In this document: one piece after another, positions 436 to 11,344 of the stretch
Numbering within the stretch: position 1 is the first letter of the stretch
Layout: each line of letters opens with the position of its first letter
Source of the DNA: Acidobacteriaceae bacterium
GTDB taxonomy: Bacteria > Acidobacteriota > Terriglobia > Terriglobales > Acidobacteriaceae
Direction of reading: 5' to 3'
NCBI GenBank assembly: GCA_035944135.1
Contig: DASZBM010000002.1
Location: 248,001 to 312,000 of the forward strand
Length of the DNA stretch: 64,000 bases
The notes under the pieces: model-generated
The model's database searches: none
Told to the model about the DNA's origin: nothing
The model's input: the letters and a program-made list of their open reading frames with translations, nothing else
Program-made: the position numbers and the translations under genes

Positions 436-822
436 TCACGATTCATCGGCCTGCAGAAACGCTCCTCGCAGTACCGAAACCAGATGTTCAACTCTGATTG
501 GGTAGCTCAGGAAAGAAACTGCGCCGAGATCCATGGCGTGAGTTCTGGCCGATTGAGTGTCATGCGTCGCTGAATGGAAGATGACAGGGACCGACTTGGT
601 CTGTGGATCGCTTTTCAACTTCTGACAAACATCAAAGCCGGTCATATCCGGCAGATTAATGTCCAACAGGACTGCATCCGGGCGACGCGAAGCGGCCATT
701 TTCAGCGCCTCCGAGCCGGTTGTGGCCTGCATGACCTCGAAACCAGACCCCTCGAGATGTTTCCCGAGCGCGTATTGATGAGTTTGATTGTCATCGACGA
801 CCAGGATGATTCGATGATCCAA
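436..822 (-). CDS. Stand-alone response-regulator receiver protein
   Basis: The 128-residue protein is a single CheY-like receiver domain with no output domain. The acidic pocket is at residues 10-11 (VVDD), the phospho-acceptor aspartate is Asp54 in VLLDINLPD, and the conserved threonine/serine is in the FHSAT strand. It is divergent from the stressosome operon that begins at 978. It is therefore a natural candidate phosphate acceptor or shuttle for the two hybrid kinases of that operon. The canonical lysine of the last strand appears replaced (FLSYPI), a mild departure from typical receivers. Identification as a receiver is firm; its partner is inferred from position. Confidence 0.9.
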   Translation of the reverse strand: MDHRIILVVDDNQTHQYALGKHLEGSGFEVMQATTGSEALKMAASRRPDAVLLDINLPDMTGFDVCQKLKSDPQTKSVPVIFHSATHDTQSARTHAMDLGAVSFLSYPIRVEHLVSVLRGAFLQADES

Positions 823-977: not shown

Positions 978-1841
978 GTGAGCACATCGAAAATTCCCGA
1001 AATTCTTCGCCAGCATGAAGGAACCCTCCTGGACGACTGGACGCGAGAGCAGGGTCAGATCAAGGATTCGAGCAATCGCCTATCCGATGCAGAGGTGAGG
1101 TCACAATCCAGACGCTTCCTTCAACTGGTGCAGGAGGCAGCCACAAGGGGCAACGTGGTCGACGTCGAGGGGGATAATTACAGAGAGGTACGTAAATTCC
1201 TCGAAGAGATATCTTCGAGCCGTGCGGCTCTGGGGTTCAGCCCGAAGGACACAGCGCTTTTTATTTTCTCGTTCAAGCAGCCTCTATTCGCACAGATTCG
1301 CACCTCCCTGCCGAAGGCGGAGGAACAGGTTGCCGAGATATGGAATGCGACGCTGCTGCTCGACAGGCTGGGTCTGTTTACGACAGAGATGTATCAGAAG
1401 TCCCGCGAAGCCGTCATTCTCCGCCAGCAGGAGGAGATGCTGGAGCTCTCGACGCCTGTTGTGAAACTGTGGGATGGGGTTCTGGCGCTGCCCATTATCG
1501 GCACGCTGGACTCAAGCCGCACGCAGACGATCATGGAGAATCTTCTGGCGAGAATCGTTGAGACGGGATCGGAGCTCGCAATTATCGACATTACCGGCGT
1601 TCCCACGGTGGACACGCTCACGGCACAACATCTTTTGAAGACGGTCACGGCGGCGCGTCTGATGGGAGCGGAGTGCATTATCAGCGGTATACGTCCGCAG
1701 ATTGCTCAGACGATCGTGCACCTCGGCGTTGAGCTGGGGGACATTGTGACGAAGGCAAGTCTTGCCGACGCCTTCCGCGTCGCGATGCAGCGCACAGGTC
1801 ACACCGTAGTCCGTAGAGCCCTCGTTGCGGGCAAGGCATAA
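978..1841 (+). CDS. rsbR: RsbR-type stressosome scaffold protein (STAS)
   Basis: The 287-residue protein has an N-terminal helical, globin-like sensor region (about 1-150) and a C-terminal STAS domain (about 160-275). Two threonines match the RsbRA sites phosphorylated by RsbT: Thr213 in GVPTVDT and Thr245 in GIRPQIAQT. In the known system RsbR and RsbS form the 1.8-MDa stressosome that holds RsbT. The start is GTG at 978, preceded by AGAAGAGG at 965-972. It is the first gene of a tightly packed run with rsbS and rsbT. What signal the N-terminal domain senses cannot be told from sequence. Confidence 0.92.
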   Translation: MSTSKIPEILRQHEGTLLDDWTREQGQIKDSSNRLSDAEVRSQSRRFLQLVQEAATRGNVVDVEGDNYREVRKFLEEISSSRAALGFSPKDTALFIFSFKQPLFAQIRTSLPKAEEQVAEIWNATLLLDRLGLFTTEMYQKSREAVILRQQEEMLELSTPVVKLWDGVLALPIIGTLDSSRTQTIMENLLARIVETGSELAIIDITGVPTVDTLTAQHLLKTVTAARLMGAECIISGIRPQIAQTIVHLGVELGDIVTKASLADAFRVAMQRTGHTVVRRALVAGKA

Positions 1842-1855
1842 TTCAGGAGCGATTC

Positions 1856-2266
1856 ATGGAACATATACCTATTCTGCGGATGGGCGAGTTTCTCCTGATT
1901 ACTGTGCAGGTAGACATGCACGACCGGCTTGCCATGCAGTTGCAGGACGATCTCACAGAGCAGATTGTGCGCTGCGGTTCACGCGGCGTTCTCATCGACA
2001 TCTCGGCACTTGAGGTGGTGGATTCCTTCATTGGCCGAATGCTGGGAAATATTGCGTCGATGTCACGTGTGCTTGACGCGCAGACCGTCGTTGTTGGCAT
2101 GCGTCCGGCAGTCGCGATCACGCTGGTGGAGCTGGGCATGTCTTTGCCAGGAATTCGGACCGCCCTGACGGTTGAACGCGGCATGGAGATTCTGCGCGCC
2201 GACGTATCTCGTGCTAATGAGGAGCTCGAAGCGGAGGAGTTAGCAGATGGAAGTTCTGAAATCTGA
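1856..2266 (+). CDS. rsbS: RsbS-type STAS protein
   Basis: This 136-residue protein consists of one STAS domain without a sensor extension, as in RsbS. Ser57 in LEVVDSFIG corresponds to Ser59 of Bacillus subtilis RsbS, the residue phosphorylated by RsbT when the stressosome is activated. It begins 14 bases after rsbR and its end overlaps the start of rsbT by 20 bases, implying co-translation. By family knowledge it is the core partner of RsbR and sequesters RsbT in unstressed cells. Confidence 0.92.
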   Translation: MEHIPILRMGEFLLITVQVDMHDRLAMQLQDDLTEQIVRCGSRGVLIDISALEVVDSFIGRMLGNIASMSRVLDAQTVVVGMRPAVAITLVELGMSLPGIRTALTVERGMEILRADVSRANEELEAEELADGSSEI

Positions 2267-2654
2267 GACACTCGCCGTTCGAACGTCTGAGGATGTGGTG
2301 ACGGTTCGCACTTCGGTGCGCAAGTTGGCGGCCGACCTTCGTTTCGGCATCGTCGATCAGACCAAAATCGTTACTGCGGCGAGCGAGATTGCCCGCAACA
2401 CAATCGATTACGGGCATGGGGGAAACCTTCGCATGGACGTCCTTAATAACGGTCTGAAGAGAGGCCTCCGGCTGATTTTCGCGGATCAGGGGCCTGGAAT
2501 AAAAGACATCCAGCAGGCCATGACGGATGGATTTACGAGTGGAAGCGGTATGGGGCTGGGGCTCGGCGGTACCCGTCGTCTGATGGATGAATTCGACATT
2601 GCATCCAAGCTAAACGAAGGGACAACCGTCACCATCACAAAATGGAGCCGCTAA
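2247..2654 (+). CDS. rsbT: RsbT-type serine/threonine kinase (GHKL ATPase)
   Basis: The 135-residue protein is a single GHKL ATPase domain. It shows the N box (SEIARNTIDYG), the G1 box (DQGPGI) and the G2 box (SGMGLGLGG). RsbT phosphorylates RsbR and RsbS and is then released to act on a downstream partner. The ATG lies inside rsbS behind a GGAGGAG ribosome site, and its 3' end overlaps the next gene by 13 bases. The classical target RsbU and a sigma-B-like factor are absent from the window, so its free form may act on a neighbouring hybrid kinase (inference). Confidence 0.93.
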   Translation: MEVLKSETLAVRTSEDVVTVRTSVRKLAADLRFGIVDQTKIVTAASEIARNTIDYGHGGNLRMDVLNNGLKRGLRLIFADQGPGIKDIQQAMTDGFTSGSGMGLGLGGTRRLMDEFDIASKLNEGTTVTITKWSR

Positions 2655-3622
2655 AGCAAACCACGATCGTTCCTATTCAGGATTCGTCGCAAGTCGCACT
2701 CGCACGCCGGACAGCCAATGAGCTTGCGTCTGTGGCGGGTCTGGACGAACAGCGCCGCTCTGCAGTCAACGTTGTCACAGTAGAGCTGGCGAACAACATC
2801 CTGCAGCATGCGGGTTCCGGCCAACTGCTTTTTCAATACATCCAGAAGACCGGGGCGTTCGACATCATAGCCGTCGATCATGGCCCCGGGATGGTGGACG
2901 TGGAGCGTTGTCTCGAAGACGGCTTTAGTACAAAATCGACTCCGGGATTAGGGCTCGGTGCGGTACAGCGCTTCGCCATACGATATGGGGCGTTTTCAGT
3001 GCCGGAGCGCACTACTGTCGTGACCGCGCGTATGGCTGAACGAGCTCCCGAGCCCGACTTTTCCGTGATCTGCACTGCTATTCATGGCGAGACACTCAGC
3101 GGAGACGGGTGGGATGTTTCTGCGGATGGGCGCAGCTTCTGCGTTGTCGATGGCTTAGGCCACGGCATGCTGGCCGCAGAGGCTGCAAAGGTGGCTATCG
3201 AGATCTTACATAAGCATCCTGGAATCTCACCGGCGGCCTGCCTTGAGAAGATGCACGCGGCAATGAGATCCACTCGCGGAGCTGCAGGAGCTGTGGTACG
3301 AGTGAATCCTGAGACTGGTACTCTGGATTTCGCCGGAATCGGCAACATCAGCTGCGTTCTGATGGCGGACGAAAAGAACCAAAGTCTTGTCTCTTATAAC
3401 GGCACTCTTGGGCATCAGCTTCGCCGTGTCCAGGAGTTTTCTTATCCGTACAAACGCCGTGACCTGCTTTTGATGCACTCAGATGGTCTGACCACGCAAG
3501 CGAAGCTAGGCATCCCCTCTTTGCTGCTCTCGCAAGCGCCGAACGTGATTGGGCCCTTTCTCTTTTCCGAGCAGCTTCGAGGTCGCGATGACGCGACCCT
3601 CCTGGTGAGCCGCCTTGCATAG
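2642..3622 (+). CDS. RsbT-like ATPase fused to RsbX/SpoIIE-type phosphatase
   Basis: The 326-residue protein has two parts. Residues 1 to about 135 form a second GHKL ATPase with N box VELANNILQHAG, G1 box DHGPGM and G2 box PGLGLGA. Residues about 145-326 form a PP2C-like phosphatase with the acidic motif VVDGLGHG and the later motif LMHSDGLT. In Bacillus, RsbX dephosphorylates RsbR and RsbS and resets the stressosome. Here that role is fused to an ATPase or anti-sigma-like domain. The ATG overlaps rsbT. The domain calls are strong; the reset function is inferred from family and context. Confidence 0.85.
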   Translation: MEPLKQTTIVPIQDSSQVALARRTANELASVAGLDEQRRSAVNVVTVELANNILQHAGSGQLLFQYIQKTGAFDIIAVDHGPGMVDVERCLEDGFSTKSTPGLGLGAVQRFAIRYGAFSVPERTTVVTARMAERAPEPDFSVICTAIHGETLSGDGWDVSADGRSFCVVDGLGHGMLAAEAAKVAIEILHKHPGISPAACLEKMHAAMRSTRGAAGAVVRVNPETGTLDFAGIGNISCVLMADEKNQSLVSYNGTLGHQLRRVQEFSYPYKRRDLLLMHSDGLTTQAKLGIPSLLLSQAPNVIGPFLFSEQLRGRDDATLLVSRLA

Positions 3623-5396
3623 AAACAGCTCAAGCCGGTTGCTCTGCGTTACGCTCGCTGTCGAGACGGACTTCCTGCTCGCGCGCCAACGTGCGAAGCA
3701 GATCGCCCATATTCTCGGATTCGACGGACAGGACCAGACGCGGATTGCCACGGCAGTTTCCGAAATTGCGCGCAACGCGTTCGAATATGCGGCGGGCGGT
3801 ACCGTCGAATTCTATTTAGACCGCGACGATCGCCCGTCGTTTCGGATCATCGTCACGGACAAGGGCAGAGGGATCAAGAATCTCGAGGACATCTGGGACG
3901 GGACGTTCGTATCTGCATCAGGTATGGGCGTGGGCATAGCCGGCTCTCGGCGGCTGTTGGACGATCTGAAGATCGAGAGCTCTGACACCGGAACAACCGT
4001 AGTTATGCTCAAGTATCTTCCACGCGGGCGGCCCGTCCCGGCACAGAAAATAATCGCCGACCACCTTGCGGCACTCGGTCCACAGGATGCAAGTTCCGCT
4101 CTGCACGCGCAGAATCACGAGATGATGCGCCTTCTCAACGAGCTACGCGAACGCGAGCGCGAGCTCAGCCAGCTAAATCAGGAGTTGAAGGAGACCAATC
4201 GCGGCGTCATGGTTCTGTACGCGGAACTCGAGGACCGCGCGCAGGAGCTGCAGCAAGCCTCAGAGATGAAATCGCGTTTTATCTCGGGAGTGACCCATGA
4301 GCTGCGCACGCCGCTCAACTCCATCGTTTCATTGGCCGGACTACTGATTCGGCGAATCGATGGCGAGTTGAGCGCGGAACAAGAGAAGCAGGTGCTCTTC
4401 ATTCAGCGCTCTGCGCAGAACCTGACGGAGATGGTCAACGATCTTCTCGACCTGGCGAAGATTGAAGCGGGCAAAGTCACGCCACGGCCATCCGAGTTCA
4501 CGATCGCCGAGTTCTTCGCCGCGTTGCGCGGTATGTTTCGCCCACTCGCCATGAACGAGAATGTCCAGCTCATCATCGAAGACAGTCCCATAGTGTCAAC
4601 CCGCCTCTACACGGACGAAGGCAAACTGGCGCAGATACTTCGGAACTTCATCTCCAATGCACTCAAGTTCACTGAGCGGGGCACGGTTCATGTAAGAGCG
4701 AACCTCACGCGCGATGGCGGTGTTCGCTTCTCGGTGAGGGACACGGGGATCGGCATCGCGCCGGAACACGCAGAACTCGTCTGGCAGGAGTGGGGACAGG
4801 TTGAAAGCGATCAGCGGCCCCGCCATAAGGGCAGCGGTCTCGGCCTTCCGCTGTCGCGCCAGCTTGCTGGGCTGTTGGGCGGGAAGACCTGGCTTGAATC
4901 CACTCTCGGCGAAGGCTCGACCTTTTATGTTGAGATCCCGACGGCAGTAAAATCATCAACTGTTCGGCCCGAGCCGGTTAAGAGCGAGGCAACGATGCTC
5001 ATCATCGACGACGATGAGGTCTCGCGGTACATCCTTCGTCGCACACTCGTTACGCTGACCAGTGCGAAGCTCCTCGAGGCATCTTCTCTCGTCGAAGCTC
5101 GCCGCTGCCTGGCAACATATCATCCCAGCGTCATCTTCCTGGACATCGTCATGCCAGAGGAGAACGGACTTGCTTTCGCCGAGGAACTGGGAGAGAACGA
5201 AGACACCGCTGAACTGCCAATCGTGCTCGTCAGCTCCAAGGTGCTAACGCCCGAGGAAGAGGCGTACATCCAGCGCCGTTCGCTCGTTTACATCAATAAG
5301 GATCACGGCGACGCAGAAGATCAACGCGTAGCTTTGGAGCGCGTGCTCCTGAACCTCGGCATGAGCGATCTTCACGAATCGAGGGAGGCGCATTGA
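3615..5396 (+). CDS. RsbT-like ATPase / hybrid histidine kinase / receiver fusion
   Basis: This 593-residue protein has an RsbT-like GHKL domain at about 1-140 (N box SEIARNAFEYA, G1 DKGRGI, G2 SGMGVGI). A coiled coil follows at about 165-220. Next come a HisKA domain with His228 in VTHELRTPLN, a catalytic HATPase domain at about 325-445 (GSGLGL), and a C-terminal receiver with Asp510 in VIFLDIVMP. No membrane segment is seen, so it is cytoplasmic. The start is a TTG at 3615 overlapping the previous gene by 8 bases. Two different ATPase domains in one chain are unusual. They suggest that stressosome-type switching is coupled to phosphorelay signalling. Confidence 0.88.
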   Translation: MHRNSSSRLLCVTLAVETDFLLARQRAKQIAHILGFDGQDQTRIATAVSEIARNAFEYAAGGTVEFYLDRDDRPSFRIIVTDKGRGIKNLEDIWDGTFVSASGMGVGIAGSRRLLDDLKIESSDTGTTVVMLKYLPRGRPVPAQKIIADHLAALGPQDASSALHAQNHEMMRLLNELRERERELSQLNQELKETNRGVMVLYAELEDRAQELQQASEMKSRFISGVTHELRTPLNSIVSLAGLLIRRIDGELSAEQEKQVLFIQRSAQNLTEMVNDLLDLAKIEAGKVTPRPSEFTIAEFFAALRGMFRPLAMNENVQLIIEDSPIVSTRLYTDEGKLAQILRNFISNALKFTERGTVHVRANLTRDGGVRFSVRDTGIGIAPEHAELVWQEWGQVESDQRPRHKGSGLGLPLSRQLAGLLGGKTWLESTLGEGSTFYVEIPTAVKSSTVRPEPVKSEATMLIIDDDEVSRYILRRTLVTLTSAKLLEASSLVEARRCLATYHPSVIFLDIVMPEENGLAFAEELGENEDTAELPIVLVSSKVLTPEEEAYIQRRSLVYINKDHGDAEDQRVALERVLLNLGMSDLHESREAH

Positions 5397-6877
5397 TACA
5401 TCACAAGAAGCGGCCGATCCTCTACGTGGACGATACCGTCGAGCAGCGCTACGCCATGCGTCGGATCCTCGAGACGGAGGGTTTTGACGTGCTCGAGGCT
5501 GGAACAGGCAAGGAAGCCCTCAAACTAATGGAAAGGGACCCGGCGCTTGCGGTCGTGGACGTCAGACTTCCCGACATCAGCGGATATGAGCTATCGCGGC
5601 AGATGAAAGAGATGTCGCCTCATCTCCAGGTGCTGCAGGTATCGGCAAGCTTCAGCGATCCCGAGTTGCGAGTCTCGGGGCTGTCTGGAGGCGCTGACGC
5701 TTACCTCGCTCAGCCGGTGTATCCCTCCGAACTTGTCACTTTGATTCGCCGCATGCTGCGCACAGCGGACGCGGAAGAGGCACTTCGTTTTCTCGCAACC
5801 ATCGGCACGCGCCTGAGCGAATCGCTGTCCATTTCGGATACCGCAACCAACATCTGCGAGGCGATCGTTCCGCGGTTCGCAGACCGATGCCGGATATTCC
5901 TGGAGAAGTCTCCCGGACGCGCAGCGTCTTACTTCCCGATAGGGAAACGCGACGATGAGGACCTGATTGCGGCAATGAAGCCGCATTCGGCAATAACAAC
6001 CGTCTGCATGGCAAATAGTCGGTTGCTTGTGGCACCGCTTTCGAGTGGTACGAGGTCCATCGGTTTGATCGCATTTCAATTGGATCAGGATCGCGAGTAC
6101 ACGGAGTCAGACCTCATCCTGGCCGATGATCTCGCGAACAGAGCAGCCTTGGCTCTGCAGAACTGCATCCTGTTTTCTTCCGAGCAACTGACCCGCTCTG
6201 CTCTGGTTCAATCCGAGAAACTCGCGACTGCGGGACGAATGGCCGCTGCCATAGCACACGAGATTAACAACCCGCTCGAAGCTCTCACCAATTTGCTCTA
6301 CATCGTTGAAAGTTCGAATGGAGCGACCGAATCGATTCGAGAGACGGCCGGTGCTGCTCTCGCAGAGGTGACCCGTATTGCTCACATTACACGGCAGACA
6401 TTGAGCTTTTATAGGGACATGCGAACGCCGATGACTCTGAACCTCTCCCAGAGTGTCTCGGACACGCTCCAGCTCTACATCAGGCGATTCACAGACAAAA
6501 GGATTGCGATCGAGCTCAAACTCGACGAGAAGGTTCAGATCAAAGGCGTAAAGGGAGAGATACGACAGGTTGTCGCGAACCTGTTGACGAATGCAGTTGA
6601 GGCGATGGAGCCCGACGGGAACATGCAGCTCGCGGTCTTCGAAGACCAACAGGACGCGGTTCTTTCTGTCTCCGATTCGGGGCCCGGCATAAGCGAGGAG
6701 CTGATCGGAAAGATCTTTGAGCCGTTCTTCACAACCAAACAGGGAACGGGAACCGGTCTGGGGCTCTGGATCACGCAGACGATTGTCGAAAAGCATGGGG
6801 GCAAGATTCGGGTCTCAACCAAGCGGGGCATCACGGATCATGGAGCGTCGTTTGAGGTCAGGTTCGCGAAGGCGTAG
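5393..6877 (+). CDS. Hybrid sensor histidine kinase (receiver-GAF-HisKA-HATPase)
   Basis: The 494-residue protein starts with a receiver domain (Asp56 in AVVDVRLPD). A GAF-like region follows at about 135-260. Then comes a HisKA domain with His289 in AIAHEINNPLE, and a HATPase domain at about 385-490 with N box NLLTNAVEAM, G1 DSGPGI and G2 GTGTGLGL. There is no membrane helix. The TTG start overlaps the stop of the preceding kinase by 4 bases (TTGA), so the two are surely co-translated. The N-terminal receiver could accept phosphate from the preceding kinase and gate the C-terminal kinase (inference). It is the last gene of the stressosome operon. Confidence 0.9.
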   Translation: MIHHKKRPILYVDDTVEQRYAMRRILETEGFDVLEAGTGKEALKLMERDPALAVVDVRLPDISGYELSRQMKEMSPHLQVLQVSASFSDPELRVSGLSGGADAYLAQPVYPSELVTLIRRMLRTADAEEALRFLATIGTRLSESLSISDTATNICEAIVPRFADRCRIFLEKSPGRAASYFPIGKRDDEDLIAAMKPHSAITTVCMANSRLLVAPLSSGTRSIGLIAFQLDQDREYTESDLILADDLANRAALALQNCILFSSEQLTRSALVQSEKLATAGRMAAAIAHEINNPLEALTNLLYIVESSNGATESIRETAGAALAEVTRIAHITRQTLSFYRDMRTPMTLNLSQSVSDTLQLYIRRFTDKRIAIELKLDEKVQIKGVKGEIRQVVANLLTNAVEAMEPDGNMQLAVFEDQQDAVLSVSDSGPGISEELIGKIFEPFFTTKQGTGTGLGLWITQTIVEKHGGKIRVSTKRGITDHGASFEVRFAKA

Positions 6878-7270: not shown

Positions 7271-7330
7271 TGCGGGCGAACTCAAAAACACATCGTTGGT
7301 GAAGTCAGGCTAACGAGCAGGAGTACTTTG

Positions 7331-10300
7331 ATGGCCAGTCAATCGATTGCAATCAACTCAGACCCAATAGCGAAAGTTCACAGGGACGTGACAAGAGCTC
7401 GTTCTGTCACGCGGGCCATCTGGAGCAGCTTAATCCTGACGCTGGCTGTGATCGGTTTGCTGAGCCCGCGTACAGCGGTGGCGCAGGTGGATCAGGGTGC
7501 CATCATCGGCGTGGTCACGGACTCGAGCGGCGCAGTGATCCCGAATGCCCAAGTGACGGTTACGGAGACGGACACCGGGCTGGTGCTGAAGGCGAAGACG
7601 AACGGCAGCGGAAATTACTTCTTCTCGCCGATCAAGATTGGAAACTACACGGTTAGCGCCTCGGCACCGGGCTTTCAAACGACCGAGGAGAAAAACGTCG
7701 CCGTTCACGTTCAGGACCGGCTGAACATTCCTCTCCATCTGCAGCCGGGCAAGGTGAATGAGACCGTTGTTGTCACTTCGACGGCGCCGCTAATGCAAAC
7801 GCAAACGGCTGAAGTGGCCATGGACGTCGACTCGAAATTCCTGAACGATGCACCGCTGGCGAATCGCAACTGGATCTTTATCGCGCAGGAAGCTCCGGGC
7901 ATCACCCCGGAGATAGGCCGCGGCGCCGGCAATGGTGACTTTTCATCGAACGGCCAGCACGAGGAACAGAACAACTACCAGCTTGACGGCGTCGATAACA
8001 ACGTTGCGAACAGCGACTATATCAATGGATCGTCGTACAATCTGGCTCCCCCGCCGGATGCCATTCAGGAGTTCAAGCTCGAGACCAGCAACTATAGCGC
8101 GGAGCTCGGGCGCGGCCATGGCGCGGTGTTCAACGCCACCACCAAGTCCGGCACCAACCAGTTTCACGGTGATCTCTGGGAGTATGTGCGAAACACAGCC
8201 TTCGACTCACTCGTCTGGAACCAGGCCCCGGGCTCGAAGGTTGCGGTATTCCATATGAACCAATTTGGTGCTACGCTCGGTGGCCCGATCATCAAGAATC
8301 ACTTGTTCTTCTTTGGAGACGTTCAGGAGCAGCGCTTCGTGAACGGAGCGAATCCCACCACGTATAGCGTGCCCACGCCGCGCGAGCGTCGTGGCGACTT
8401 CAGCGAACTGCTGAATCCGACATGGGGCAATGGTACCTGCCCCATAGTGCTGTACGTGCCTAACACCAACGGCGGCAACGGCCAAGACAGCAACAACTAC
8501 TATAAGTGTGCAAGCAACTCCGTATCCCACGGGCCTACGGGCAGCCTGCAGCAGTATGGCAATTCGCAGTACACGTATTCCGGGTATACGTTTGCACCGG
8601 GCCAGAACGTTTTCTCGCCAACGCAAATCGACCCGGTCGCCCAGAAACTGCTTCAGGAGTACCCCTGCCCGAACTATGCTTCTGCCGGCCAACCGAATTT
8701 TGGGAAGCCTAATGGCGGATGGAGTACGGGAGACTGCAATTCTACGAGCGATGTGGACCAGGGACCGACCTCCAACAACTACCAGACGAATCTGACGACG
8801 ACATCGGATCCAATTAATTGGGATGGGAAGCTCGACTGGAACATCAGCAGCCGCGACCTGGCCACCTTCCGCGTGGACTACGCGCACTTCATTCAGACGA
8901 ATCCCTCCCCACTCGGCCCGATCCTTGACGGCTACCCGAACTACGCGGGCCATAACCAGAGTTACCTGAGCGAGAACTTCATGCTCAGCGAGACCCATAC
9001 CTTCTCACAGTCGCTGATCAACGAATTCCGCTTTGGGTTTAACTACGGCAACGATTCGAACCTGCAGTACAACTACAACGCGAACATTGCGGCTACTCTG
9101 GGACTGAACGGGGTACCCGTCAATCTAGCTAACCAGGAAGGCGGCCTGCCCTCGGTAGCGGACGGCTTCACAACCTTCGGAACTCACGGCAACGACCCAG
9201 CCCATGAGGGCATGAACATCTACCAGTTCCTGGACAACGTCACCAAGGTGATTGGGAACCACTCGCTGAAGGCCGGTGTCGAAATCAATCCCGGGCGCTG
9301 GTACAGCACGAACGCCGGACAGCCCCTCGGAAGCTACAGCTATAACGGCCAGTTTACCGGTGTGACCGCAGCAGGCGGACCCACTGGAAATGGCGCCGCC
9401 GATTTCCTAGCCCTCGGCACATTAGCGGGCGGCGGATACACCAACACAAACAACATGGCCAGCGGCCAACTCACCACCTTCGTGTACACGCACTTCGTGC
9501 AAAAATACAATGCCGCCTACGCGCAGGACGACTGGAAGGTGACGCCCAAACTTACCCTGAACCTTGGGCTCAGGTACGAATACTTCACGCCCAAGAGGGA
9601 GCAGGCCAACCAGCTAGCGAACTTCGTCCAACTGGGCAGCATGATGACGTCGAATGGCGCGGTTTCCTCAGCGGAACTGGTGATGCCGCAAGCCGATTCG
9701 AGCCAAACGCTTCCAGCGAACTTCCTGGCGCTGCTCAACGCGGATAACGTGAAGGTGGTCTACACCAGCAACCCGTACCTGACGTCCTTCCCCAAATTCA
9801 ACTGGTCGCCAAGGGTTGGCGCCGCGTACCAATTCAGCCCGCAGACAGTGGGGCGTATCGGTGGCGGCCTCTTCATGGGCGGTTTTGAGCCGGGCGGGGG
9901 CGCTGCCAATATCCTTAATCCGCCCTTCATCGTGACCGCCGCCACAGCCGCCTTGCCGTCCTGCTCGCAGGGAAGTTATTGTGAATCGCAATATGCGTTC
10001 GGCAATACGCTGGAGGGCGGTCTCGGGCAGTTCATGGGGCCGGGCGGAGTGGCGAACCACGCTGCCTTCCCGCAGGTCTCGGAAGAAGACCCGAACATGC
10101 ATATGCCCTACACCATCAACTACAACGTGAGCGTGGAACAGGTGCTTACGCCCACAACCACGATGACGCTGAGCTACGTGGGCAGCCTCGGACGCCACCT
10201 GGTGACGAGCACCGGCCCCAACCTGCCAATGGCGATTACCGTCGGCGGCGAGCAGCCGAACGGGTTCCAGCAGTTCCCGCATCTTGGTGGGTACGCTTAC

Positions 10301-11344
10301 ATGCAGTGGACAGCCGCGAGCAATTACAACTCGCTGCAGGCACAGGTGCAGAAACGCTACGCCAGCGGGCTCGCCTTTTTGGCCACCTATACCTGGGCCC
10401 ATGGCTTCAGTGACGAAAGCGATCTACTGGGCGGAGACGTCGGGTACAAGTCACCCTACATCATCCCTATCAGGAACGAGTACACCCAGTCGGGACAAGA
10501 TATCCGGAACCGCGCTGTGATCAACGTCGACTATGACCTGCCGTTCGGCGAAGGCAGGCGCTTTGTAAATCAGAACCGTATTCTGGACAAAATCATCGGG
10601 GGATGGAAGACCGACATGGAATGGTGGGGCCAGACCGGTCAGCCGTTTACGATCGGCATCAACAGAATCTCAGGCTGGGGGAACGCCAACGGTGGCACGG
10701 CCAACAGCGCCATCAAAATCGCCAACCCATTCTCAACGGGCCTGCCGGCGCCAAACGTAGGCGGCGATCCGGCTCGACAGAGCGGCATCACCAACGGGAC
10801 GCCGTCCAATACAGCCGCGAATGTTTGCGCTGCGCAGACTCACACCAGGACGCGCTGGTACAACCCTTGTGCCTTTGAAGACCCGATAGGTGTGATGAGT
10901 AACAACGCGGCTGGGTACGCTGCCCTGGCGCCGTACGCAACGGGGTACTTCAGCTATTATTCCCCGGCCATCGGCCCCGATTCAGCGCTGAACGACGGAG
11001 CCTACAACAACAATGGGACACTCAACACCCTTGGGCCGGCGCCTTACGTGACGGGCTATCCGAATGTGGCGCCGTTCTTTGGCAGCACGAGGAACGATCT
11101 TTCCGGTCCGGGCAACTGGAGGCTTAATGCGTCGATCTTCAAGGACTTCAAGGTGTGGCGCGAGGGCACCTATCTGGAGCTCCGCGCGGACGCGTTCAAC
11201 GTGCTGAACCACCCCAGCTTCGGCAACCCTGGCGGCGGCACGAACATAGGTGCCAACTCAGTCGCGCTTACCGGGCCGGGATCTAACCAGGCCAACACTA
11301 TCGACTCGCGCTTCCTCCAGTTCTCAGGGAAGTTCGTGTTCTAA
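7331..11344 (+). CDS. TonB-dependent receptor with carboxypeptidase-regulatory domain
   Basis: The protein has 1337 residues. After a long N-terminal signal (hydrophobic stretch ending near AVAQ) comes a carboxypeptidase-regulatory-like beta-sandwich (about 55-145, with GAIIGVVTDSSGAVIPNAQV). A TonB plug follows (about 150-290, with NNYQLDGVDNN). The rest is a large outer-membrane beta-barrel ending in an aromatic residue (KFVF). This Oar-like architecture is typical of acidobacterial receptors and replaces SusC in their sugar loci. ATG 7331 is preferred over TTG 7328 because AGGAG at 7319-7323 is then 7 bases away. It lies next to glycosidase genes and probably imports their oligosaccharide products (inference). 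The substrate cannot be read from sequence. Confidence 0.93.
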   Translation: MASQSIAINSDPIAKVHRDVTRARSVTRAIWSSLILTLAVIGLLSPRTAVAQVDQGAIIGVVTDSSGAVIPNAQVTVTETDTGLVLKAKTNGSGNYFFSPIKIGNYTVSASAPGFQTTEEKNVAVHVQDRLNIPLHLQPGKVNETVVVTSTAPLMQTQTAEVAMDVDSKFLNDAPLANRNWIFIAQEAPGITPEIGRGAGNGDFSSNGQHEEQNNYQLDGVDNNVANSDYINGSSYNLAPPPDAIQEFKLETSNYSAELGRGHGAVFNATTKSGTNQFHGDLWEYVRNTAFDSLVWNQAPGSKVAVFHMNQFGATLGGPIIKNHLFFFGDVQEQRFVNGANPTTYSVPTPRERRGDFSELLNPTWGNGTCPIVLYVPNTNGGNGQDSNNYYKCASNSVSHGPTGSLQQYGNSQYTYSGYTFAPGQNVFSPTQIDPVAQKLLQEYPCPNYASAGQPNFGKPNGGWSTGDCNSTSDVDQGPTSNNYQTNLTTTSDPINWDGKLDWNISSRDLATFRVDYAHFIQTNPSPLGPILDGYPNYAGHNQSYLSENFMLSETHTFSQSLINEFRFGFNYGNDSNLQYNYNANIAATLGLNGVPVNLANQEGGLPSVADGFTTFGTHGNDPAHEGMNIYQFLDNVTKVIGNHSLKAGVEINPGRWYSTNAGQPLGSYSYNGQFTGVTAAGGPTGNGAADFLALGTLAGGGYTNTNNMASGQLTTFVYTHFVQKYNAAYAQDDWKVTPKLTLNLGLRYEYFTPKREQANQLANFVQLGSMMTSNGAVSSAELVMPQADSSQTLPANFLALLNADNVKVVYTSNPYLTSFPKFNWSPRVGAAYQFSPQTVGRIGGGLFMGGFEPGGGAANILNPPFIVTAATAALPSCSQGSYCESQYAFGNTLEGGLGQFMGPGGVANHAAFPQVSEEDPNMHMPYTINYNVSVEQVLTPTTTMTLSYVGSLGRHLVTSTGPNLPMAITVGGEQPNGFQQFPHLGGYAYMQWTAASNYNSLQAQVQKRYASGLAFLATYTWAHGFSDESDLLGGDVGYKSPYIIPIRNEYTQSGQDIRNRAVINVDYDLPFGEGRRFVNQNRILDKIIGGWKTDMEWWGQTGQPFTIGINRISGWGNANGGTANSAIKIANPFSTGLPAPNVGGDPARQSGITNGTPSNTAANVCAAQTHTRTRWYNPCAFEDPIGVMSNNAAGYAALAPYATGYFSYYSPAIGPDSALNDGAYNNNGTLNTLGPAPYVTGYPNVAPFFGSTRNDLSGPGNWRLNASIFKDFKVWREGTYLELRADAFNVLNHPSFGNPGGGTNIGANSVALTGPGSNQANTIDSRFLQFSGKFVF

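Follow-up and report, generated by a model that had tools for sequence, protein, structure and literature searches.

A stressosome gene module with an RsbT-like domain fused to its candidate output histidine kinase

We identified a run of six genes at positions 978-6877 of a 64,000-nucleotide (nt) stretch of an Acidobacteriaceae genome (GenBank assembly GCA_035944135.1, contig DASZBM010000002.1, positions 248,001 to 312,000; hereafter the window). The run begins with rsbR, rsbS and rsbT, assigned from the genes alone to a stressosome RsbRST (RST) module. It continues with a fusion of a GHKL domain to a phosphatase (tX) and two kinase genes, the first of which encodes a GHKL domain related to RsbT (tH) joined to a histidine kinase (HK). 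RST modules with an output other than a sigma factor are already known; the proposed wiring, through an RsbT relative on the output kinase, would be a new variant. We propose that tH is the stressosome-facing input and the kinase its directly coupled output, so that the output kinase would carry its own RsbT-like docking domain, and we give this proposal an even chance of being correct. It draws on five features read from the sequences: domain order, intact active sites, a conserved gene order, a linker of fixed length and an exchange of the output domain.

Phylogenetic analysis covered 297 GHKL domains, including 94 each of free RsbT (T), tX and tH, unfused RsbT of other clusters and two RsbW-like outgroups from the same genome. 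The 94 tH domains formed a clade with no other members (support 1.0), and the 94 T domains shared theirs with a single additional RsbT (support 0.86). A split (support 0.99) places T and tH, together with unfused RsbT from other clusters, opposite tX and the two outgroups, with tX on the outgroup side in 94 of 94 cases. Judged from this tree, tH is an old relative of RsbT that appears to have arisen once. An arrangement of T, tX and tH as three clean RsbT paralogue clades was dropped, because the tX side of the split holds both RsbW-like outgroups; thus, only tH is shown to be RsbT-like. The loci used here came from a set of 131, of which 100 had T, tX, tH, RsbS and HK all present and 94 were left after removal of redundancy. 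Because the set was chosen for having all of those parts, the conservation counts describe complete modules only.

The active sites of the three GHKL domains are intact. The catalytic Glu and Asn are present in 94/94 of T, tX and tH alike, and the G1 Asp in all T and tX domains and in 91 of the 94 tH domains, so tH is not a dead remnant; the same intact sites ruled out tX and tH as dead remnants in general. The ATP site of RsbT (Glu, Asn, Asp, Gly) is complete in 94/94. An Arg 26 residues ahead of the catalytic Glu occurs in every T, tX and tH domain (94/94 each) and is absent from the RsbW-like control rows, and we consider it a putative STAS-docking residue. Asp20 and Asp23 of RsbS are kept in all 92 readable rows. 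A comparable pair stands in the SypE-SypA model, where Arg22 of SypE, 26 residues before its Glu48, contacts Asp20/Asp22 of SypA (PMC10120452).

The linker joining tH to the kinase is constrained in length. Its LYAEL motif stands at a spacing of 27 from the phospho-acceptor His of HisKA in all 89 loci where both motifs occur; counted from the end of tH, that His lies at a distance of 94 in 66 of 85. This constant motif spacing suits a signalling helix better than a loose tether. An AlphaFold2 (AF2) model of tH-HK has one helix, residues 159-245, that runs from the tH linker through His228. The best fold matches of the model (predicted local distance difference test, pLDDT, 82; predicted template modelling score, pTM, 0.45) are histidine kinases, and its domain placement is uncertain because of the pTM value. 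RsbT is described as activating RsbU by making the RsbU linker a coiled coil, with related logic proposed for kinases and cyclases (PMC12143880); in tH-HK, by comparison, such a linker is attached to the RsbT-like domain. The kinase residues are conserved as well (His in 94/94 loci; N-box Asn in 92/92 and G1 Asp in 90/90 readable rows).

The domain that follows tH can be exchanged. In two genomes of one genus, a tH-GGDEF fusion replaces the histidine kinase at the same operon position (L077:6907-8037 and L078:7366-8496 (minus); Pfam was run on L077). In a Sphingomonas plasmid and a few alphaproteobacterial loci (L105, L136 and L154), tH sits on kinases best scored by the other HK profile.

The gene order, whose conservation in related genomes the original prediction had proposed to check, recurs widely. 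A search of 150 genomes of the family with the tH query gave matches in 98 at an E value of 0.001 and in 29 at 1.3e-34 or better; the weaker matches are mostly other GHKL proteins, judged by short match and low identity. From the 29 genomes 30 loci were taken, of which 24, including the window, have the order R-S-T-tX-tH-HK. Two others have R-S-T-tX-tH-GGDEF, two are cut by contig ends, in one tH and HK lie in different frames, and one has no adjacent RST. The tX domain of L058 was assigned by a separate profile, and the contrast loci L080, L082 and L083 are without tH.

When named genomes were searched with tH plus its linker, 398 relatives came up, and gene order was read in the best 80. The order R>S>T>tX>tH is present in 67 of these best 80 of 398 loci, with the genes mostly overlapping. 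Because it recurs at this frequency in several phyla, we conclude that the arrangement is not due to chance. The best 80 loci include Acidobacteria, Alpha-, Beta- and Gammaproteobacteria, Cyanobacteria, Nitrospira, Planctomycetota, Rokuibacteriota/Methylomirabilota and Gemmatimonadales, as well as Anaeromyxobacter with one inserted gene. The 13 exceptions are not all contig ends: RST is on the opposite strand in L115, one gene is inserted in L127 and L134, and tH-HK lies upstream of the rest of the module in L145. The divergent receiver gene that precedes rsbR in the window and the sixth gene vary from locus to locus. The RsbR/RsbS end of G367 is rearranged, and at L226:2014-3579 RsbR and the start of RsbS are inverted relative to the remaining RsbS, through either an inversion or an assembly fault.

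Seventeen of the 18 matching records in a plasmid scan are from Deinococcus. Plasmid MP1 of Deinococcus radiodurans (L243) encodes all six genes (DR_RS15570-DR_RS15595), which are annotated merely as STAS, anti-sigma regulatory factor and ATP-binding proteins. Transposase and partition genes lie near the MP1 module.

The phosphorylation sites of the stressosome components were placed from PDB chains that differ there and from B. subtilis numbering. The phospho-acceptor Ser of RsbS is present in 94/94 complete modules. RsbR, found in 93 of the 94, has the Thr of the second phospho-site in 93/93, window included; at the first site of the B. subtilis type Thr is found in 0/93 and Ala in 65/93, and the window has Ser. 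In a wider set of 30 rows, the first site is Thr in L077, a tH-GGDEF locus, and the second is Ala in L082 and L083, both without tH. RsbRD_N and STAS scored above the cut-off in the window RsbR and in 9/9 other RsbR proteins tested. The four metal-binding Asp positions of the tX PP2C domain are Asp in all readable rows (n = 94, 94, 93 and 92), and tX differs from single-domain RsbX by its extra N-terminal GHKL domain. At L068 (oriented 3988-5964), two RsbR genes stand in tandem ahead of RsbS.

In the window, all open reading frames of the run were found where the original prediction had placed them (Table 1). That prediction described rsbR, rsbS and rsbT as nearly abutting or overlapping and followed by a phosphatase fusion and two kinases, which agrees with a 14-nt gap at the rsbR/rsbS junction and overlaps of 20 nt (rsbS/rsbT), 13 nt (rsbT/tX), 8 nt (tX/tH-HK) and 4 nt (tH-HK/REC-HK). 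Its description of two hybrid kinases holds for the first kinase, the only one of the two with an RsbT-like domain; the second is a receiver-first protein (REC-HK), not a classical hybrid kinase. The TTG starts of both kinases fit the relative L052, where the lengths are likewise 593 and 494 amino acids. The divergent receiver gene is separated from rsbR by 155 nt.

Table 1. The six genes of the run and the neighbouring divergent receiver gene, with positions in the window
Feature	Coordinates	Strand	Domain calls and remarks
Lone receiver	436..822	-	Pfam REC 6e-26; Lys site Tyr (FLSYPI)
RsbR	978..1841	+	RsbRD_N sensor 993-1298 (Pfam 4e-24); STAS 1461-1733 (Pfam 2e-14)
RsbS	1856..2266	+	Single STAS, Pfam 2e-8; phospho-acceptor Ser57
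RsbT	2247..2654	+	Predicted free GHKL serine kinase; Pfam HATPase_c_2 1e-10
tX	2642..3622	+	GHKL, RsbT/RsbW kind, 2684-3019 (HATPase_c_2 9e-11); RsbX-type PP2C 3059-3619 (SpoIIE/PP2C 2e-12)
tH-HK, RsbT-like part	3615..5396	+	RsbT-like domain 3615-4034, Pfam HATPase_c_2 4e-16
tH-HK, kinase part		+	HisKA 4266-4472 (8e-18; His228 at 4296-4298); HATPase_c 4614-4943 (8e-37)
tH-HK, receiver		+	REC 4998-5306 (Pfam 3e-13), Lys kept
tH-HK, linker		+	Single long predicted helix 4089-4349 (residues 159-245), running into HisKA
REC-HK (sixth gene), receiver	5393..6877	+	N-terminal REC 5417-5746 (1e-19), without conserved Lys
REC-HK (sixth gene), rest		+	GAF_3 (Pfam stretch 6008-6163, 4e-8); HisKA 6233-6415 (1e-6); HATPase_c 6557-6865 (4e-24)

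Comparisons with PDB sequences matched RsbR to stressosome RsbR (7o0i, 9o3o), RsbS to RsbS (6qcm) and RsbT to SpoIIAB (3e-7), and gave 3zt9 and RsbX 3w40 as the best matches of the tX PP2C domain. The AF2 model of tX (pLDDT 90) had Foldseek matches to 3zt9 (best), RsbX and SpoIIAB. For tH alone the best E value was 0.012, to engineered proteins, with SpoIIAB at 0.019. Promoter and terminator scans were within or below the shuffled expectation, an Rfam scan gave no match in the window, and no tandem repeats were found in the operon region. The operon is followed by a large protein (7328-11344) with, by eye, a carboxypeptidase-like start and the look of an outer-membrane receptor, and with no sign of operon membership.

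No RsbU_N domain was detected in the genome with a profile that detects the B. subtilis control, and none of the 13 matches to SigB/F/G-type sigma factors exceeded the cut-off. A sigma-B output was rejected on these grounds, and the sigma-B/RsbU set elsewhere in the genome that could have been the sole RsbT partner was not found. With the recurrence of the gene order across phyla, these results favour kinases, not a sigma factor, as the partners of the module, as originally predicted; the evidence for this is comparative. The genome contains nine places with SpoIIE-type PP2C and eight with STAS, the window's own included. One cluster (C10:611-617 kb; L085:3477-9924) encodes PP2C, RsbW-like, STAS, RsbW-like and PP2C proteins, an arrangement resembling partner switching; no sigma gene was seen in the stretch listed, where no Pfam scan was made. 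Another partner of RsbT, or cross-talk, may exist among the other PP2C, STAS and RsbW-like genes of the genome.

The receivers attached to the module fall into different classes. The receiver of tH-HK has the conserved Lys in 60 of 64 readable rows (51/115 were not readable). The N-terminal receiver of the sixth gene (window 5417-5746; homologues L052-L165) belongs to an unusual class in which the phospho-Asp is intact (63/63 readable rows) and the Lys is replaced, mostly by Gln or Glu (Lys in 0/61 readable of 65 rows, and in 0/26 of the family set). Divergent lone receivers before RsbR were found in 7/93 loci (5 by a stricter count), 89 of the 93 loci having at least 450 nt upstream. Receivers of the window type account for 4/93 loci, and all four have Tyr or Leu in place of the conserved Lys (Y, Y and L in the relatives at L052, L053 and L055); the remaining three are of a different type, with Lys present. 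The phosphorelay ending at the divergent receiver (436-822), as originally predicted, did not hold up: given its rarity and the missing Lys, this receiver was rejected as a conserved end point of the module, and it is probably a lineage-specific neighbour outside the core.

We infer docking by tH and tX, the direction of switching, phosphotransfer and the final target as follows. RsbR and RsbS would form the scaffold, for which three GHKL domains would compete: that of free RsbT, that of tX, which belongs to the RsbX-type reset phosphatase, and tH on the histidine kinase. At rest, tH would be held on RsbS/RsbR by a contact of the SpoIIAB-SpoIIAA type. On stress, Ser57 of RsbS and the Thr of RsbR would be phosphorylated and tH would let go, and the change would travel along the fixed-length helix into HisKA. 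The kinase might then signal via its own receiver or receivers and the partner kinase, and tX would carry the phosphatase to the scaffold and reset it. More broadly, and with somewhat less than an even chance of being right, the stressosome core may be a general plug-in scaffold. Effectors (histidine kinases of two profile classes and a diguanylate cyclase) would each dock through an RsbT-like domain of their own, the reset phosphatase would do so through its own GHKL domain, and stress would switch each client through a fixed-length helix.

Several observations weigh against the docking of tH as the input of the kinase. The tX GHKL domain is not clearly an RsbT paralogue. The Arg/Asp pair is equated with that of SypE-SypA by position and not by structural alignment. 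Inter-component distance correlations (phylum labels assigned by hand) range from 0.17 to 0.50 and do not single out the RsbS-tH pair; as a means of finding the partner of tH they were uninformative, with no clear winner. As the scan of named genomes had started from tH, a search starting from RsbS was also made (297 genomes of the phylum, E 1e-15); it found RsbS in 27 genomes and, in favour of the docking, tH nearby in 10, of which two have tH-GGDEF. The other 17 of the 27 show no tH, which indicates that other outputs are common too. Among the ten of these 17 that were inspected at the locus, G395 has tX at a contig end, so that its tH may lie beyond the break, and in G266 tX and the kinase are present but tH is missing. 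The L225 kinase (5403-6350) keeps the linker without the tH domain, a natural loss with T remaining, so tH is not indispensable. Finally, the Asp at the position that we take, by its numbering, to be D92 of B. subtilis RsbT is kept in 92/94 T and 92/94 tX domains and aligned as Gly in 92/94 tH domains. RsbT D92 is said to contact the RsbU linker (PMC12143880), and the pattern would fit free RsbT as the activator equally well.

Such an activator is the core of the first alternative, in which free RsbT would be the messenger: released from the scaffold, it would bind the kinase at tH or at the coiled-coil linker, as with RsbU, and turn HisKA on, with tH serving as an RsbT receptor and not as a ligand of the scaffold. 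This would be the classical role of RsbT. The coiled-coil mechanism of RsbU and its suggested extension to kinases and cyclases would accommodate it, and kinases with the RsbU N-terminal domain share operons with rsbT in some Proteobacteria (PMC12143880); the retained Asp in T and the linker kept without tH in L225 point the same way. Here, however, RsbU_N is absent from the kinase and the genome, the catalytic site of tH is complete and its putative STAS-docking Arg is kept, unexpected for a mere receptor, and in Vibrio the RsbT-VvD1 pair gave no positive interaction (PMC9237108; no RsbT-like domain is mentioned for VvD1 in its available text). We consider this explanation unlikely. The original prediction had allowed for switching of the kinases by free RsbT or by the RsbT-like domains, and the second option is the better supported, with tH fused via a fixed-length linker.

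In a second alternative the flow is reversed, and tH and tX would act as serine kinases and determine how far RsbS and RsbR are phosphorylated, their activity being tuned by the histidine-kinase parts, as in SypE-SypA. The kinase sites of tH and tX are intact, and SypE, whose target is a STAS protein, combines PP2C and REC with an RsbW-like kinase (PMC12826045, PMC10120452). The exchange of the domain after tH for a GGDEF cyclase marks an effector position, and the linker enters HisKA at a fixed spacing, as it does in input domains; both make reversed flow quite improbable. Mere co-expression of a stressosome and kinases acting in parallel, without direct contact, would suit the variation of the divergent receiver and the sixth gene between loci and the inferential nature of the contact between tH-HK and the scaffold, and is very improbable given an RsbT relative that is fused to the kinase, forms a single clade across phyla and keeps its gene order.

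In B. subtilis and Listeria, the stressosome signals through the pathway RsbRST-RsbU-RsbV-RsbW-SigB. The module described here shares with it RsbR, RsbS, RsbT, the conserved Ser and second Thr phospho-sites and an RsbX-type phosphatase, but has no RsbU_N and no SigB, lacks the first RsbR Thr in 93/93 complete modules (it is present in L077) and has GHKL domains fused to the phosphatase and the kinase. The stressosome of Moorella thermoacetica is said, in work attributed to Quin in 2012, to control a diguanylate cyclase. It is similar in having a signalling enzyme as output, and tX finds its best structural match in the Moorella phosphatase 3zt9. The Moorella cyclase is described as receiving RsbT through an RsbU N-terminal domain (PMC12143880), whereas here the RsbT-like domain itself is fused to HK or GGDEF. 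SypE-SypA of Vibrio fischeri resembles tX in joining an RsbW-like kinase and PP2C in one protein with a STAS target, but SypE has REC, and the passages available on it describe no stressosome or histidine kinase fusion.

Stressosomes beside other output systems, as the original prediction noted, have been published: eleven downstream types, including kinase-receiver relays, have been distinguished, and the route to the output was left open, most downstream proteins being without RsbU_N and no positive result having come from the test of RsbT against the kinase (PMC9237108). The closest case is Vibrio vulnificus, whose two-component output VvD1/VvD2 has been characterised (PMC10014275). There, RsbR-S-T-X is likewise followed by two-component genes, with no sigma-B and no RsbU_N in the output (PMC9237108, PMC10014275). 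It differs in its globin-type RsbR (RsbRD_N here), an RsbX described as single-domain (a GHKL fusion here) and an output tied to cyclic diguanylate (c-di-GMP), and the text available on it mentions no RsbT-like domain on its kinase. Stressosome genes also adjoin histidine kinases or receivers elsewhere, with RsbU N-terminal domain kinases beside RST in some Proteobacteria (PMC12143880, PMC9237108) and a CheY-like protein beside the V. brasiliensis operon (PMC4976288). Those loci have a kinase with an RsbU_N receptor or no named coupling domain; here the domain is RsbT-like.

The D. radiodurans MP1 genes are a member of the module and, taken by order, correspond to DR_B0024-DR_B0029. DR_B0028 and DR_B0029 are believed to share their regulation with an antisigma-regulation operon (PMC6501615, citing Makarova 2001), DR_B0028 was more abundant after vacuum (PMC6501615), and DR_B0026 is listed as RsbT (PMC7143949); the available text of PMC6501615 says nothing of an RsbT-like part in the kinase. 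Among the literature matches listed, none was recognised as describing an RsbT-like domain on a histidine kinase, and an earlier description is possible (Pane-Farre 2005, 2017; Makarova 2001).

Overall, we describe a widely distributed stressosome variant in which the output kinase carries an RsbT relative, and which reaches further than originally predicted. Where RsbU and sigma-B are lacking, the output question may, for a sizeable class of stressosomes, be answered by an RsbT relative fused to the effector, which suggests a testable wiring for stressosomes without a sigma factor. If the plug-in scaffold is correct, RsbT of Bacillus would be the free version of a client-docking domain. The RsbT-like domain suggests a modular input for kinases and cyclases that can be tested in Deinococcus radiodurans.

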